Shown: piece after piece, positions 8,291 to 44,129 of the stretch
Numbering within the stretch: position 1 is the first letter of the stretch
Layout: every line of letters begins with the position of its first letter
NCBI GenBank assembly: GCA_021646465.1
Contig: SOET01000004.1
Location: forward strand, 1-64,000
Direction: 5' to 3'
Source of the DNA: Candidatus Kuenenia hertensis
GTDB taxonomy: Bacteria; Planctomycetota; Brocadiia; Brocadiales; Brocadiaceae
Length of the DNA stretch: 64,000 nt
Made by a program: the position numbers and the translations under genes
Notes under the pieces: generated by a model
Databases searched by the model: none
What the model was told of the DNA's origin: nothing
What the model saw: only the letters and a program-made list of their open reading frames with translations

Positions 8291-9891
8291 GTGTAAAGTC
8301 TCTTAAAAAAAGAAGATAAAATCATACCGCCGGTACCTGTTAAACAAACAATGGAAAACCACTCTCCAAACAATGTATAAAAAGTATCACTTTTTTTAAC
8401 GAGTTTAATTCGATTTACCAGCGTTCCGCTTATCTCTTTTTGTCGCCCTTCTGCATCATTTAATTTACCATAAATCGTTCCGCCAGGTCCCACAAAAGCA
8501 GATATCCCCGTATTTGCCGCCCGCGCCATGCATGTACGATTTTCTACTGCTCTGAATACCATTATCGCAAGATGTTGTTCCAGTTCCGCACTGTCATGAA
8601 ACCACCCGTCATTTGTCACGTTAAATATAAAATCCACCCCCTGCTTTTTAAGTTTTCTTATCAAAGATGGAACTGTATCTTCATAACAAATAGACGCTCC
8701 GAAATTAAAACCCTGATTTTGCAATGTCGTAAGATGAAATACTGTACTTTTTTCCCCATGCGACAACCCAACTGAATACGGCACAAGTTTCGATAAAAAA
8801 GGTAAATATTTTTCCAGGGGTGTAAATTCCCCAAACGGAACAAGATGAATCTTATCATAGCGATCAAGAAATTCTCCATTTCTTCCGTAAAAAAAGACAC
8901 TATTAAAATATTTCTGATCTTCTTCAAAAAGAAAGAGTGAAATACCTCCCAGGAGAAGGCTTGCCTTTAATTCCTGCGCCAGTTGCACTGCAGTGAGCTG
9001 CGACAGATAATCAATTTTTCTTCCCGTAATGTCCGGATTTATATTAAGTATTCCCGGTACCATCGTTTCCGGCCATACGACAAGATCAATCGGCTCCCCC
9101 TTAACACGTAAAGACAAATCATAATATTTTTTTAACGTTTTTACCTCTTCCTCTTCTGACGATTCGGCTTTCACCTCCTGTGATATATTTCCCTGCACCA
9201 GACATACAACAGGACCTTCATATGGTGTGTAATTTTTTAGCCAAAACGCTCCGTACAATAACACCCCGATGACTAATGGTATCGGCAAAATATATGATAA
9301 ATAAATAAAATTTTGTTTTCGTCCAACCCAGAGGGCTATATTTTCTTTTTCATTATGGTTATTGCGAAAACAATGTGCAATTAACCACGCAATATACGCA
9401 TTCACCATGATAATCAAAAATGATATTCCGGAAACGCCGGTAATATCACAAATTTGTATTACCGGCAAATAGCGGTATTGCGTATGCCCTGCAAAAAACC
9501 AGGGAAACCCTGAAAAGAGGTGTGATCGTATATATTCCAAAGATACCCACACACACGGAGCAACAAAAACAAAAGGCAACTTTAATTTTAAAACAATTCT
9601 TCGGATGCAAAAGGCAAAGCAGAGGAAATAGAGCGCACAATAAAGACTTAATAATAACCATGCCGCATAGGTAACATACCGTAACCATGAAAGTTCTGAG
9701 AAAAAAAAGAGCGCCCCAACAAAATACGAAGCAAGATATACATACTTCCTGCCCCGCATTATAAGGAGAAACCATGGTACGAAGGCAAACCATGCAAAAT
9801 AACCAATATCTGCAGGAGGGAAAGAAAGGCAGAAAAAAAGGATTGTTAAAAAGGAAAGTCCTATAATTTGAGTAATTTCTTTATTTCTCAA
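8287..9891 (-). CDS. lnt: Apolipoprotein N-acyltransferase
   Basis: 534 aa. The N-terminal half has about six to eight membrane helices; the C-terminal half is a nitrilase-fold domain exposed to the periplasm. It adds the third acyl chain to outer-membrane lipoproteins. The Glu-Lys-Cys triad is visible: Glu in VVWPETMVPG, Lys in YDKIHLVPFGEF, and Cys in GASICYEDT. Length is close to E. coli Lnt (512). The start overlaps the moeA stop by 4 nt. Confidence 0.95.
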   Translation of the reverse strand: MRNKEITQIIGLSFLTILFFCLSFPPADIGYFAWFAFVPWFLLIMRGRKYVYLASYFVGALFFFSELSWLRYVTYAAWLLLSLYCALYFLCFAFCIRRIVLKLKLPFVFVAPCVWVSLEYIRSHLFSGFPWFFAGHTQYRYLPVIQICDITGVSGISFLIIMVNAYIAWLIAHCFRNNHNEKENIALWVGRKQNFIYLSYILPIPLVIGVLLYGAFWLKNYTPYEGPVVCLVQGNISQEVKAESSEEEEVKTLKKYYDLSLRVKGEPIDLVVWPETMVPGILNINPDITGRKIDYLSQLTAVQLAQELKASLLLGGISLFLFEEDQKYFNSVFFYGRNGEFLDRYDKIHLVPFGEFTPLEKYLPFLSKLVPYSVGLSHGEKSTVFHLTTLQNQGFNFGASICYEDTVPSLIRKLKKQGVDFIFNVTNDGWFHDSAELEQHLAIMVFRAVENRTCMARAANTGISAFVGPGGTIYGKLNDAEGRQKEISGTLVNRIKLVKKSDTFYTLFGEWFSIVCLTGTGGMILSSFFKRLYT

Positions 9892-38833: not shown

Positions 38834-38861
38834 TTGAACTTTACCGTTTTTGTGGTAAATT
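38834..38861 (+). promoter_or_regulatory. Candidate promoter of the riboswitch transcript
   Basis: TTGAAC (38834-38839) and TAAATT (38856-38861), 16 nt apart. The expected start near 38868 falls just before the riboswitch fold, as would be expected for a dedicated promoter. Confidence 0.5.
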
Positions 38862-38873
38862 ATCAATTTAGTA

Positions 38874-38948
38874 GAAGGCAAACCAACTGTGAGGTTGGGA
38901 CGCAAAGCCATGGGTCTTCTGTAATTGAAGAGTGCCAGGTTGCCAGTA
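38874..38948 (+). ncRNA. Cyclic di-GMP-I (GEMM) riboswitch
   Basis: The conserved blocks occur in order: GGCAAACC (38878-38885), GGGACGCAAAGCC (38897-38909), TGGGTC, then GTGCCAGGTTGCC closing the P1 stem with the start. The P2 helix AACC/GGTT and the tetraloop/receptor arm with TTCT-GTAATTG-AAGA are intact. This class binds cyclic di-GMP between two stems. No coding gene follows on the same strand for about 2.7 kb; a terminator follows after 70 nt. Confidence 0.92.
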
Positions 38949-39017
38949 ATAAGTTGCACGCTTGATAGTAATATTCTAGTTTGCAAATTTTATTGCTGAT
39001 AAGGCAAGTATTGAATG

Positions 39018-39054
39018 ACCCAAGGCAATGTTATTGCATGCCTTGGGTTTTTTT
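39018..39054 (+). terminator. Rho-independent terminator behind the riboswitch
   Basis: Arms ACCCAAGGCA (39018-39027) and TGCCTTGGGT (39039-39048) with an 11-nt loop, then a run of seven Ts. It is the natural expression platform of the riboswitch or the end of a short RNA. Confidence 0.85.
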
Positions 39055-39197
39055 GTTGGACAGCGGTTAACAACAAGGAGTGAAGATATTCGCAATAGCA
39101 ATATAAACGACAAAAAACAGTTATGCAGCAACGATAGTTTTTAATATATCGGCATTACGAATTCGTCCCCTTATACCTCTCGATTAAGGTTTTTCCT

Positions 39198-39230
39198 CCC
39201 CTTCACCCCCCTTAATAAGAGGTGTAAGGG
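39198..39230. repeat. Palindromic interspersed element (CCCTTCACC...GGTGTAAGGG)
   Basis: Inverted arms around CCCCCTTAATAAGA, with one bulge. Elements with the core CCCCCTTAATAAG are frequent between genes in several phyla. It may also serve as terminator of the minus-strand SUMF1-like gene. Confidence 0.45.
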
Positions 39231-39276
39231 ACGTATATATTTGTTTTCCTTAAAAACCATACAACCTTTTCCGTGG

Positions 39277-40791
39277 CTATTTTTTGCTGTTTTCTCCGGC
39301 TTCCGGGTTATAATCTTTTGCGCATCGAAAACCAATACTCTTATTCCTGTCTTCCGGCTTACCGAATATTCTGACGGCACATCTCATTTTATAGGCATAT
39401 GGCGCAAATAGAGACGCCCCCTTTATGATTCTCACTCCCGTACTATAATCTGGTCCTTGTGGATTCATACTTGGACTTTTTTGGTAGTATTCCGGATGGT
39501 ACCAATCATTACACCATTCAGAGACGCTGCCAATGACATCGTAACAACCGTAAATGCTTTTCCCTGTTTCATAACTGCCAATTTTGAGAGATCCGCTTGG
39601 CCCAACATTTGCCAATGTTGAATCCCAAACATTACCCCATGGATATCTGCGTCCATCTGTTCCCCTAGCAGCTTTTTCCCACTCTGCTTCTGTTGGGAGG
39701 CGCTTCCCTGCCCAGGCGGCATATGCGTATGCATCGTACCAGTCAACACGGCTTACAGGATAATCGGGATAATCATAATATGGGTAGTCCCAGTTTGTAT
39801 GCAACGTGCCTGGAGCATGATTCTTGTCTTTTGGCTCCTGAGGATAACATTTGCTGTGGTCTCCGGTTTCATTTATATATTGCAGAAATTCCCAGTACAA
39901 GGCATTCGTGACTTCATATTTATCTATATAATATGCGTCCAAATATACTTCGTGTTGTGGTGTTTCCTCGGGAATAAATTCATCCTCTTTGGATCCCATA
40001 ATAAACTTGCCCGCCGGAATTAAAATCATTTCGCTCCATTTGTCACGGTTTTTCTCTAGTGCAGCTTTCATTTTCTTATTTCTTTTTTCTAAAGCACGTT
40101 TATTGCGCTTTTCTTTTTCTTCAGGCGGAAGTCCTTTTTCCAGTTTATATATATAGGTGTCTACGTCTTCACGTATTCTTTGGTAATTTACATGGGATTT
40201 TTGTTCTTCGGGCAATGCTTCGAATAATTCCTCGCATGCATCTAAGTGAAACAAAGCCTGTTGTTGATTTGCTAATTTCCAATAAATACCGGCCATGCTA
40301 AAGTGAATACTTACATTATCAGAATGTAACAGCACTGCTTTTTTAAATTCATTTAGTGCCTCTGCGTATTTTTCTTCTTTTTTTAGCCGGTTTCCTTCGT
40401 CTACGTAAGTTTGTATCTTTTGAGCAATTTCGGCAGGGGTAAGATTTTCAATGCTTTCATTGAAATCTTTTTGATCTTCAATCGGCTGAATAATCAGGGG
40501 TGTCCCGTCTTTTTTGCAAAAATTTTCTCCAGGCTTTGCTTTCTCTTTGCATGTGGGACATATAAGATCTACAGCGTCATATTCAACAAGCTGTTTGCCA
40601 TCAATACTGCAAAAGCTTACGTCTCCAGGATATACCCTGCTGCATTCCGGGCACAACTTGTTTTTTGCCGTATTTGCTTCCGTTATTGGCGTATTTTCTA
40701 AATTATTTTCATCAGTGTTCTGTGAGAAAAGAACATTGCACAAGAATAAATTGAAGGCAATAGAGAGCATTATTACATAAAAAGATTTCAA
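39277..40791 (-). CDS. Exported zinc-ribbon/TPR protein with SUMF1 (FGE-like) domain
   Basis: 504 aa. Signal peptide (about 1-23); two zinc-ribbon-like CPxC pairs (CPECSRVYPGDVSFC, about 47-62, and CPTCKEKAKPGENFC); TPR region (about 130-200); Lys/Glu-rich linker; SUMF1/FGE sulfatase-modifying-factor domain (about 255-500: MILIPAGKFIMGSKED, DAYYIDKYEVTNALYWEF, RLPTEAEWEKAARG, IGFRCA). In true formylglycine-generating enzymes the RVxKGGS block is followed by catalytic Cys residues; here it reads RIIKGASLFAPYAYKMRCAVR and the usual Cys pair is missing, so a binding or scaffold role is likelier. Confidence 0.85.
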   Translation of the reverse strand: MKSFYVIMLSIAFNLFLCNVLFSQNTDENNLENTPITEANTAKNKLCPECSRVYPGDVSFCSIDGKQLVEYDAVDLICPTCKEKAKPGENFCKKDGTPLIIQPIEDQKDFNESIENLTPAEIAQKIQTYVDEGNRLKKEEKYAEALNEFKKAVLLHSDNVSIHFSMAGIYWKLANQQQALFHLDACEELFEALPEEQKSHVNYQRIREDVDTYIYKLEKGLPPEEKEKRNKRALEKRNKKMKAALEKNRDKWSEMILIPAGKFIMGSKEDEFIPEETPQHEVYLDAYYIDKYEVTNALYWEFLQYINETGDHSKCYPQEPKDKNHAPGTLHTNWDYPYYDYPDYPVSRVDWYDAYAYAAWAGKRLPTEAEWEKAARGTDGRRYPWGNVWDSTLANVGPSGSLKIGSYETGKSIYGCYDVIGSVSEWCNDWYHPEYYQKSPSMNPQGPDYSTGVRIIKGASLFAPYAYKMRCAVRIFGKPEDRNKSIGFRCAKDYNPEAGENSKK

Positions 40792-40933: not shown

Positions 40934-41494
40934 TTATTTTTCTGATACTCCAACTACCGTTTCATCCTGTTTTTCTCGTTTCCAGTTTGACCACTTTCCC
41001 CATTCGATATATTTTTTCCCGTCAGATAACCAATATTGTGTACCTTCCCTTTCTCTCATACAAGCTAATCCTTCTGCCTTTCGTACCTGGGTTTGCTTTA
41101 TAACTTTGAAAAAATAACAATCAACCTGATGGAAATTTATTTCGGAACTATTTTTAACCTCTTTTAATTCAAGATCATTAAAGGTTAATTTGTTTTCCGT
41201 AAATTTTTTTTCATCAACGGGTATTTCGTATGTGATAATGTCAGTTACTTTAATACTGACTGCATTGGGTTTTTCATCAATCCACGGTATTGGAACGGTA
41301 CCACCGTATGGGGCAAAGGATTGGTGAAAACTGTGAGGTTGATCCCCGGGCTGTCTGGTAGTATCTATTATACCGCCACCGGAATGTTGCGCCAGAACGT
41401 GTTTTTCTGTTGTAAAAATAAGGAGAATAACTGCAAATAATCCTGCCAGAGATATCGAGCGTAATGTCAATAATATACTTGGTTTAACCTTCAT
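40934..41494 (-). CDS. Exported protein of unknown function
   Basis: 186 aa from ATG at 41494, chosen because AAGGAATT precedes it at a good distance and the product then begins with a signal peptide (MKVKPSILLTLRSISLAGLFAVILL...VLAQ); the frame is open to 41638. The mature part has SFHQSFAPYGGTVPIPW near the N-terminus and charged strands after it. I recognise no family. It precedes the SUMF1-like gene on the same strand by about 140 nt, so they may be related. Confidence 0.6.
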   Translation of the reverse strand: MKVKPSILLTLRSISLAGLFAVILLIFTTEKHVLAQHSGGGIIDTTRQPGDQPHSFHQSFAPYGGTVPIPWIDEKPNAVSIKVTDIITYEIPVDEKKFTENKLTFNDLELKEVKNSSEINFHQVDCYFFKVIKQTQVRKAEGLACMREREGTQYWLSDGKKYIEWGKWSNWKREKQDETVVGVSEK

Positions 41495-41672
41495 ACTAAT
41501 AATTCCTTTTGATGAGAAAAGATATAATAATGTTAATAATTTAAAAATTCTACATGAGAATAAAGGGCTTGTCAATTGTTTTAGGAGTAAATTGAACAAC
41601 TGCAAATTGCTAAGCAAAATAAAGAGACAAAAATTCATACTATGGATGCTGATTTTGAATGATTCTTTATTC

Positions 41673-41701
41673 TTGACATAAAATTTTTATGATATTAAGA
41701 T
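41673..41701 (+). promoter_or_regulatory. Promoter of the histidine kinase operon
   Basis: TTGACA (41673-41678) and TAAGAT (41696-41701), 17 nt apart, about 50 nt upstream of the kinase start. Confidence 0.55.
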
Positions 41702-41750: not shown

Positions 41751-44129
41751 GTGTTACGTTTTCATATGGAAAAAAGCCGAAAAATTCTTATTGTTGATGA
41801 TGATGATCTGATGTGTGCATCTCTTAAGGAGATGCTCGAAGAATGCGGATATCATGTTTACGTGGCACGCCATGGAGATGATGCGGTTATATTGTTAAAC
41901 AAATATAAAATTGATTTGGTTTTGTTTGACTTTAGTCTGTACGATGAACATGAGTTTTCGTCGGTAGAAAGAATGAAGGATGCCTTGTCAAATACAATTG
42001 TTATTGTTATGGTTGACCGATCAAGAGTAAGTAAAGTAATCAATAAATTATGCCTGGATACGGTTGACTATATTTTGAAACCTTTTGATACTGATTATCT
42101 GAAAAAGACCGTTGAGAAAGCGCTTTACAAGCAACAACTGGAATTGAATCTGAAAAAAGCGCTATTCGACAAAGAAATTATAAATAATATAAACAAATCA
42201 ATTGCTACCAGTATTGATATTCGTGAAAGTTTTTCCGTGGTGTGTGGTGAACTGAAAAAAATTATTCCTTTTGCTCGTGCATGTTTGATCATTTCAAACG
42301 AACAGGGGGAATGGTTTCAGGTGTTTGCATTGGCAAAAAAATATAATTTCAGTGAAATTAATGCCGGGGAGTCATTCCCCATGGAAGGCAGTCTTTTGGA
42401 AAGGATTATTCAAACAGGAGAGCCTATTATAGTTAACGACACAAAAGCAGGATCATTTTGGACTGATAGGGTATTATTTAATGAAGGAATACTTTCGCGG
42501 ATGGGCTTTCCCCTCATACACAAGGGTAAAGTGCTCGGCGCAATTACATTTGGAGCCGAGAAGATAAACAGTTTCGACGAACAGTCATATTTCTATCTTT
42601 GGCAAATAGCACCCCAACTTGCAATAGTGCTTGAAAACTCTATTTTATTCAACCGTATTAAAACTTCAGAAGAGCGTTATAAGATGTTGTTTAACTATGC
42701 GGCAGACTCTATGATGATGATAGATTTGAATGGCAAGATACTTACGGTAAACAGGCGTGAAGAAGAAATAATCGGTTATCAAATGGAAGAGCTTATCGGC
42801 AAATATGTTTTTGATTTCCTGACTAGTTCATCAAAGAAAACAGTCATCTCGCTTTTATCACGGGCAATCAATAAGAAAGTGCCTACCACAGAAATTGAGG
42901 TGATCAACAGAAATAAACAAATATTAGTGATGGAACTGGATATTATTGTTGTGAGAGAACGAAATGATATTATTTATATATTAGCACATTTCAGAGATAT
43001 AACCGAAAGGAAGAACCTTGAATTAGAATTGAAGAGGGAAAAGGAGAAACTTGATAATATTGTAAGTGAAATCGGTGCAGACTTACTCATTATTGGCAGA
43101 GACAAAACGATTCACTGGGCAAACAAACGACTGATCAATAATCATCCACTTGGTAAAAATATAGTAAATCATACTTGTTATGATACGTTTTGTAATCTTC
43201 AGGAAGACCCCGTTGATTGTCCTTCTTTTAAAGTTTTTAAAACGGCAAAAATCAACCAGACAGAGCGTGTACTTTATAACCATAATAAAAAGAAATTCTG
43301 TAATGTAATCACTTCCCCGATCTTTGACAAAGATGGAAAGGTTATTCAGGTTCTGGAGCTGATTCAGGATATTACGGAAAAAAAACGGGAAGAGGAAAGG
43401 CAAAAAAAATTACAACAACAATTAATACATTCAGACAGATTGATTTCCATTGGGAGGCTTGCGGCAGGAGTTGCCCACGAGATCAATACACCTCTGGCGA
43501 TCATTTCGGGTATGACACAAGGTTTTCTTGAAAGAAAAAAATTGTTTAACAATGAAACAATAAAAGAATTTAAAACAATACAAAAGGTAACAAAAAGAAT
43601 AGAAAAAATTGTTAATTCTTTATTGGAATTGTCGCATTTCGAAGGAAATGAACAGCCAAGACTTGTCAATATTAATAAAATTATAAAGGAAACAGTTACG
43701 CTTATTATAGAACCGTTTGCAAAAAAAGATAAGAAAGTTATTTTGAAATTATCTTCCGGATTGCCGAAAATTAAAGGATTCGCAGACCAATTACAACAGG
43801 TAATAATGAATTTGCTGATTAATGCTGATGATGCTACTAAACCTGGCGATACCGTATCCATAACGACAAACATGAAAAACAAAAATACAATTAATATTAA
43901 TTTTGAAGATACCGGTACTGGTATCCCTGAAAACCAGCTATCAAGAATTTTTGACCCGTTTTTTACCAATAAGGAAGTAGGAAAAGGGACAGGACTGGGA
44001 TTATCCATTACTTATGGGATTATAAAACGTCATAATGGTGCTATTTATGTGAAAAGTGCCGTGGGAAAAGGTACAAAATTTGAAATAAATCTCCCCGTGA
44101 ATTTTGATAAGGCGGTGTTCTATGGATAA
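41751..44129 (+). CDS. Soluble hybrid sensor histidine kinase (REC-GAF-PAS-PAS-HisKA-HATPase)
   Basis: 792 aa, no membrane segment. The order is an N-terminal receiver (about 7-120, phospho-Asp in LVLFDFSLYD), GAF (about 145-295), PAS (about 305-420, MMIDLNGKILTVNRREEEIIGY), a second PAS with several Cys residues, HisKA with the phospho-His in GRLAAGVAHEINTPLAI, and HATPase (NLLINADDATK; DTGTGIP; GKGTGLGLSI). A leading methionine at residue 6 is an alternative start. The PAS-2 Cys cluster (CYDTFCNL, DPVDCPSF) hints at redox or metal sensing. The partner regulator gene overlaps its end. Confidence 0.92.
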   Translation: MLRFHMEKSRKILIVDDDDLMCASLKEMLEECGYHVYVARHGDDAVILLNKYKIDLVLFDFSLYDEHEFSSVERMKDALSNTIVIVMVDRSRVSKVINKLCLDTVDYILKPFDTDYLKKTVEKALYKQQLELNLKKALFDKEIINNINKSIATSIDIRESFSVVCGELKKIIPFARACLIISNEQGEWFQVFALAKKYNFSEINAGESFPMEGSLLERIIQTGEPIIVNDTKAGSFWTDRVLFNEGILSRMGFPLIHKGKVLGAITFGAEKINSFDEQSYFYLWQIAPQLAIVLENSILFNRIKTSEERYKMLFNYAADSMMMIDLNGKILTVNRREEEIIGYQMEELIGKYVFDFLTSSSKKTVISLLSRAINKKVPTTEIEVINRNKQILVMELDIIVVRERNDIIYILAHFRDITERKNLELELKREKEKLDNIVSEIGADLLIIGRDKTIHWANKRLINNHPLGKNIVNHTCYDTFCNLQEDPVDCPSFKVFKTAKINQTERVLYNHNKKKFCNVITSPIFDKDGKVIQVLELIQDITEKKREEERQKKLQQQLIHSDRLISIGRLAAGVAHEINTPLAIISGMTQGFLERKKLFNNETIKEFKTIQKVTKRIEKIVNSLLELSHFEGNEQPRLVNINKIIKETVTLIIEPFAKKDKKVILKLSSGLPKIKGFADQLQQVIMNLLINADDATKPGDTVSITTNMKNKNTININFEDTGTGIPENQLSRIFDPFFTNKEVGKGTGLGLSITYGIIKRHNGAIYVKSAVGKGTKFEINLPVNFDKAVFYG

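Follow-up and report, generated by a model that had tools for sequence, protein, structure and literature searches.

Control of antisense transcription by a riboswitch is uncommon, with some precedents. In a 2023 survey, antisense-acting riboswitches had been experimentally shown in only two cases and many were predicted mainly by orientation; among the 27 families, cyclic di-GMP riboswitches had the strongest antisense tendency, with 152 antisense vs 2,554 sense (PMC9943018). The SAM (S-box) riboswitch antisense to ubiG-mccB-mccA in Clostridium acetobutylicum, reported in 2008, terminates when its ligand is present and permits antisense read-through when it is absent, and the cobalamin riboswitch antisense to pocR in Listeria monocytogenes was experimentally shown, the ligand relieving repression of the facing gene (PMC9943018). 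Among the predicted antisense-acting c-di-GMP-I riboswitches is one of Paenibacillus, which faces an XRE regulator gene (PMC9943018). Concerning sense control, the c-di-GMP-I OFF switch Cd1 of C. difficile has an aptamer that can coexist with the terminator, and an aptamer-breaking antiterminator that is transient, existing before the terminator 3′ strand (PMC9262584). An orphan c-di-GMP-I riboswitch is also present in C. difficile, between CD2517 and CD2517.1 (PMC11477304). For anammox bacteria, we found no literature on either riboswitches or small RNAs.

Here we describe a class-I cyclic di-GMP (GEMM-I) aptamer, the sole Rfam riboswitch in a 64-kb stretch of DNA (the whole stretch analysed, referred to as the window) from contig 37 of a 4.17-Mb draft genome. 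The named relatives of the window proteins are Brocadia, Jettenia and Scalindua (anammox Planctomycetota). We consider it very likely that the unit works as an OFF switch for cyclic di-GMP and has no sense gene, while its reading as an antisense-acting riboswitch that would control the facing SUMF1-like gene stands at about an even chance.

Compared with the ubiG-mccB-mccA system, the unit likewise lies 3′ of and faces the presumed target, with the same predicted OFF logic, through which the ligand would raise the facing genes. The two differ in ligand and aptamer class; moreover, the antisense effect was shown there and is proposed here, and the target there fits the ligand, whereas the SUMF1-like target has no known cyclic di-GMP link. 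Layout and OFF logic against a regulated gene are also shared with pocR, for which ligand and target are different and the effect is experimentally shown. With the Paenibacillus case our unit shares the aptamer class and a facing gene less than 500 nt away, in another phylum and with another target; in addition, we examined the antiterminator here, as well as whether a second species keeps the orphan layout. The architecture of aptamer, terminator and transient antiterminator, which in the window comes from computed folds, is the same as in Cd1, but Cd1 controls a sense flagellar operon, whereas our unit has no sense gene. The orphan of C. difficile belongs to the same class and is listed without known function.

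The aptamer and its family in the genus

The aptamer matched RF01051 (c-di-GMP-I) with 64.3 bits along the full length of the model (positions 1–87; gathering score 35 bits). It also matched RF03167 (c-di-GMP-I-GGC) with 60.5 bits (E 8.4e-12 over the 64-kb window), barely above the gathering score of 59 bits. P2 is capped by a GUGA tetraloop, and G38877, A38904 and C38943, which we take to be the equivalents of the ligand-contacting residues G20, A47 and C92 of Vc2, were read from the window sequence at the expected ligand-contact positions. The consensus of the RF03167 model, ACGCGAAG, has G at position 47, and the "GGC" label presumably denotes a variant with G replacing A there; the window has A (ACGCAAAG). 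We surveyed 57 GEMM units from eight genomes (this and related ones), with the window unit represented by its ortholog in a second species of the genus, and all 57 had G at 20 and A at 47. The ligand-specificity variant was rejected, as its diagnostic G is absent, and since A47 is found in the window and in all of these units, the aptamer was filed under classical c-di-GMP-I. Judged from the sequence, its molecular identity as a c-di-GMP-I riboswitch is firm, and ligand binding is predicted. The genome encodes 22 GGDEF domains, thus cyclic di-GMP is likely available. In two relatives (G020 and G022), 54 and 43 RF03167 matches were counted, respectively, several of them before near-identical genes.

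The draft genome carries ~17 GEMM elements, and two kinds of expression platform occur among the GEMM units of the genus. In the first kind, that of the window, an aptamer with CAUGGGUCUUC is followed by a separate downstream terminator opening with (A)GACCCAAG. In the second, the terminator is built from the aptamer's own 3′ strand and ON logic is predicted; one genome appears, from these modelled platforms, to use both signs, ON and OFF. Units of the second kind in the genus are L078, L079, L080, L081 and L112. A CCCA...TGGGTTT terminator was detected within 420 nt in 23 of the 29 units with the UGGGUC strand, vs one of 1450 dinucleotide shuffles, and 20 of 23 units of this type show antiterminator-then-terminator folding like that of the window.

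Tandem complete OFF units (aptamer, terminator, aptamer, terminator, gene) were identified at L071 (4628–5002), L072 (7311–9299), L073 (C17:29141–28481) and L218. Several of the tandem units have a strong Shine-Dalgarno-like AAAGGAGG after the first terminator, with no real ORF behind it. L072 also has a third, degenerate GEMM copy at 9229–9299, which scores 35.4 bits, has changes at conserved bases and immediately precedes the gene for a 1002-aa secreted-type protein.

Promoter, terminator and predicted antiterminator

An earlier note on this DNA had claimed a GEMM fold at 38874–38948, a candidate promoter directly 5′ of it and a strong terminator 70 nt beyond. The fold was recovered with an extent that begins at 38868, the promoter gained support from its identity in the second species and from the pattern of its paralogs, and the terminator was found 68 nt past the aptamer end (Table 1).

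Table 1 Features of the riboswitch unit and the neighbouring genes, in window positions
Feature	Position	Strand	Evidence
Candidate riboswitch promoter: TTGAAC, 16-nt spacer, TAAATT	38834..38861	+	8/12 consensus; 23/28 identical in second species; pattern common to paralogs
Class-I cyclic di-GMP (GEMM-I) aptamer	38868..38948	+	RF01051 and RF03167 matches; 73/81 identical in second species
Switching strand within aptamer, GCCAUGGGUC; 5′ half of predicted antiterminator	38907..38916	+	9/10 complementary to 39017–39026; pairs ~0.98–1.0
Linker; UUAUUGCUG pairs with aptamer 3′ strand CAGUAAUAA in predicted antiterminator fold	38949..39016	+	Predicted also in second species; 43/65 identical
Intrinsic terminator; 5′ arm GACCCAAGGC (39017–39026) doubles as predicted antiterminator strand; U7 at 39048–39054	39017..39054	+	−21.8 kcal/mol, z −5.7
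Convergent SUMF1-like gene (FGE-sulfatase domain, TPR, zinc-ribbon); proposed antisense target	39277..40791	−	PF03781, E 3.4e-57; ortholog in same place in second and third species
Conserved gene, no Pfam match; 5′ neighbour of SUMF1-like gene, coverable by long read-through	40934..41638	−	Adjoins SUMF1-like gene in every relative compared
PAS/GAF histidine kinase gene, next on plus strand	41751..44129	+	Gene list

The match of the promoter to the sigma-70 consensus is weak, which is why it was unlisted by the promoter scan. It has a TG one base before the −10 hexamer (extended −10 type), and the pattern TTGAn...TGTGnTA is common to the promoters of several paralogous units. This promoter-like stretch would start transcription at ~38868, and the terminated RNA would be ~187 nt long with its 3′ end near 39054.

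None of 200 shuffles folded as well as the terminator, and the whole 38860–39060 stretch gave a folding z of −4.0. The possibility that it is the SUMF1-like gene's own terminator was rejected, as the T run is on the plus strand only and the arms carry the sequence found in the riboswitch family. The 5′ arm GACCCAAGGC and the strand GCCAUGGGUC within the aptamer are complementary at all but one of ten bases. A second stem of the antiterminator fold, CAGUAAUAA/UUAUUGCUG (UUAUUACUG in the second species), sequesters the aptamer 3′ strand and differs between the two species by one change from U-G to U-A.

In prefix folding, at which the transcript was computed up to the point before the terminator 3′ arm exists, the antiterminator was the minimum-energy fold, with ~0.98–1.0 per pair in the window and 0.83–1.0 in the second species. 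With the 3′ arm present, the terminator won and antiterminator pairing fell to 0. In the computed folds the two structures are thus mutually exclusive, as in an expression platform coupled to the aptamer, and the terminator is predicted to be a switch with OFF logic, the ligand leading to termination and its absence to read-through. When cyclic di-GMP is bound, the aptamer would retain GCCAUGGGUC and the terminator would form, a step read from the base pairing; without it, GCCAUGGGUC would pair with GACCCAAGGC, the terminator would be blocked and the polymerase would continue.

Conservation of the orphan layout

Downstream of the unit, the plus strand has no gene for 2.7 kb, and the stop codon of the SUMF1-like gene lies 329 nt past the aptamer end and 222 nt past the terminator. 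The survey took as antisense-acting those riboswitches that lie 3′ of a facing opposite-strand gene at ≤500 nt (PMC9943018), a distance within which our unit falls, and no explanatory sense gene was found in the window or in the second species. The statement in the earlier note that no plus-strand gene or short ORF with a ribosome binding site follows held up: the next two genes are both on the minus strand, and the short plus-strand ORFs that the gap does contain lack counterparts in the second species.

In this second species (G002, contig VGXV01000002.1), the riboswitch unit has the same two flanking genes, MurJ and SUMF1-like, which are again on the minus strand, and no plus-strand gene follows it. 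As a neutral yardstick we used the fourfold-degenerate sites of four neighbouring genes, at which 408 of 758 (54%) are identical between the window and G002. The aptamer is conserved far above these sites (90% identity; binomial P ~2e-12). Identity is 30/37 in the terminator (hairpin 23/30, U-tract 7/7), whereas the post-terminator stretch, with 55/97 (57%), is neutral. A third species (G001) has both flanking genes with a 208-bp gap and no riboswitch unit between them, so the unit was either gained in the other two species or lost in G001. Outside the genus no riboswitch unit was found at this locus, the MurJ/SUMF1 neighbourhood being itself restricted to the genus. As only two species carry the unit, our main argument is conservation and not covariation.

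According to the earlier note, an orphan unit would be overturned if relatives had a conserved plus-strand gene directly downstream that was deleted here recently. The synteny comparison with G002 revealed none, and a recent deletion of a sense gene was rejected given the same orphan layout there. The shared layout, together with conservation well over neutral, argues against both a recent deletion and a decaying relic; from these comparisons, the unit is probably used and its arrangement conserved in the second species. Among the 57 units surveyed, that of the window locus is the only one that clearly faces a gene on the other strand and has no plus-strand ORF after it; three could not be judged (L226, with masked downstream DNA, and two on contig C38, at contig ends). 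The unit therefore adds a case beyond orientation, with orphan layout, promoter, aptamer and a specific antiterminator conserved across two species with saturated neutral sites, and such conservation of a whole unit supports its use more strongly than orientation by itself.

Readings of the orphan unit

The earlier note had offered two readings: in one the product is a ligand-sensing small RNA or ligand sponge, in the other read-through enters the SUMF1-like gene in antisense. The orphan status is well supported; of the two readings, the antisense one is favoured by the conserved antiterminator. Under antisense control, the read-through polymerase would run into the SUMF1-like gene at its 3′ end (39277), and expression of that gene would be lowered by polymerase collision or antisense RNA. 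In net terms, the SUMF1-like gene, and perhaps the one at 40934–41638 too, would be freed from repression when cyclic di-GMP is high.

The preserved antiterminator suggests that read-through matters, or at least the choice between a short and a long RNA, and the SUMF1-like 3′ end is the only nearby thing that read-through can reach; the scan listed no plus-strand terminator between 39055 and 39277. As the terminator 5′ arm is complementary to the aptamer in both species, read-through appears switchable, which makes antisense control the better of the two readings. The layout of the SAM/ubiG and cobalamin/pocR systems and the tendency of cyclic di-GMP riboswitches in the survey also led us to prefer it over a trans-acting small RNA. 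On the other hand, the function of the SUMF1-like protein has no evident tie to cyclic di-GMP, and G001 has the gene without the unit, hence the gene does not need it. Moreover, a hairpin at 39164–39232 could stop or process the read-through, and a short RNA as the product would also lead one to expect conservation of the switch.

We further propose, tentatively and at somewhat less than even confidence, a cyclic di-GMP antisense switch under selection in one anammox lineage. It would have been recruited from the genome's sense-acting OFF units, with the whole promoter-aptamer-terminator cassette set against the SUMF1-like 3′ end and the messenger activating instead of repressing. If confirmed, a sense OFF switch becomes an activator merely through placement.

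It is possible, though rather unlikely, that the ~187-nt terminated RNA is itself the product, either as a trans-acting small RNA, with the short form at high cyclic di-GMP, or as a ligand sponge. The conserved part stops at the terminator, the next 100 nt being neutral, and the paralogous units carry the same switching strands, so that cross-pairing is conceivable. Terminated riboswitch RNAs that act in trans exist, with SreA and SreB of Listeria as the precedent. The C. difficile list likewise holds an orphan of this class with no known function (PMC11477304). Against this, nothing is conserved beyond the normal needs of an OFF switch, the linker being weakly conserved outside the switching stem, and a single locus would hardly make a convincing sponge beside the ~16 other aptamers transcribed in the genome.

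A loss of the sense gene before the divergence of the two species, with the unit persisting unused, is improbable. The unit does resemble its gene-controlling paralogs, and an AAGGAG motif (39074–39081) after the terminator resembles a ribosome-binding site similarly placed in other copies and is not kept in G002. An unused unit would be expected to decay like the post-terminator stretch, contrary to the identity of the aptamer, the intact U-tract and the antiterminator maintained in both species.

An excludon-type arrangement, in which the read-through RNA would cross both minus-strand genes and form a long 5′ leader of the plus-strand genes that start at 41751 (histidine kinase and response regulator), is very improbable. 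In all three species these genes, the first to follow on the plus strand, hold their position. However, such a leader would span 2.9 kb, and directly upstream of the genes lies a promoter (41673–41701, TTGACA-17-TAAGAT) that is conserved in the three species including the riboswitch-less one. A missed sense target among the plus-strand ORFs of 8–38 codons in the 38949–39276 gap is scarcely credible, as none is conserved in G002 and the post-terminator region evolves neutrally.

In every family member compared, the gene at 40934–41638 accompanies the SUMF1-like gene, whereas the surroundings farther out are not conserved. The interval that separates the riboswitch terminator from the stop codon of the SUMF1-like gene contains the long hairpin at 39164–39232, which has a 20-nt loop and a plus-strand folding energy of −30 kcal/mol (z −7.0). 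It is 92% identical in G002, loop included, amid neutral surroundings. Other sites in the two genomes carry CCCCTAACCCCCTTTAATAAG repeats with a distant similarity to it, and the hairpin may be a mobile repeat or a 3′ end signal of the minus-strand mRNA.
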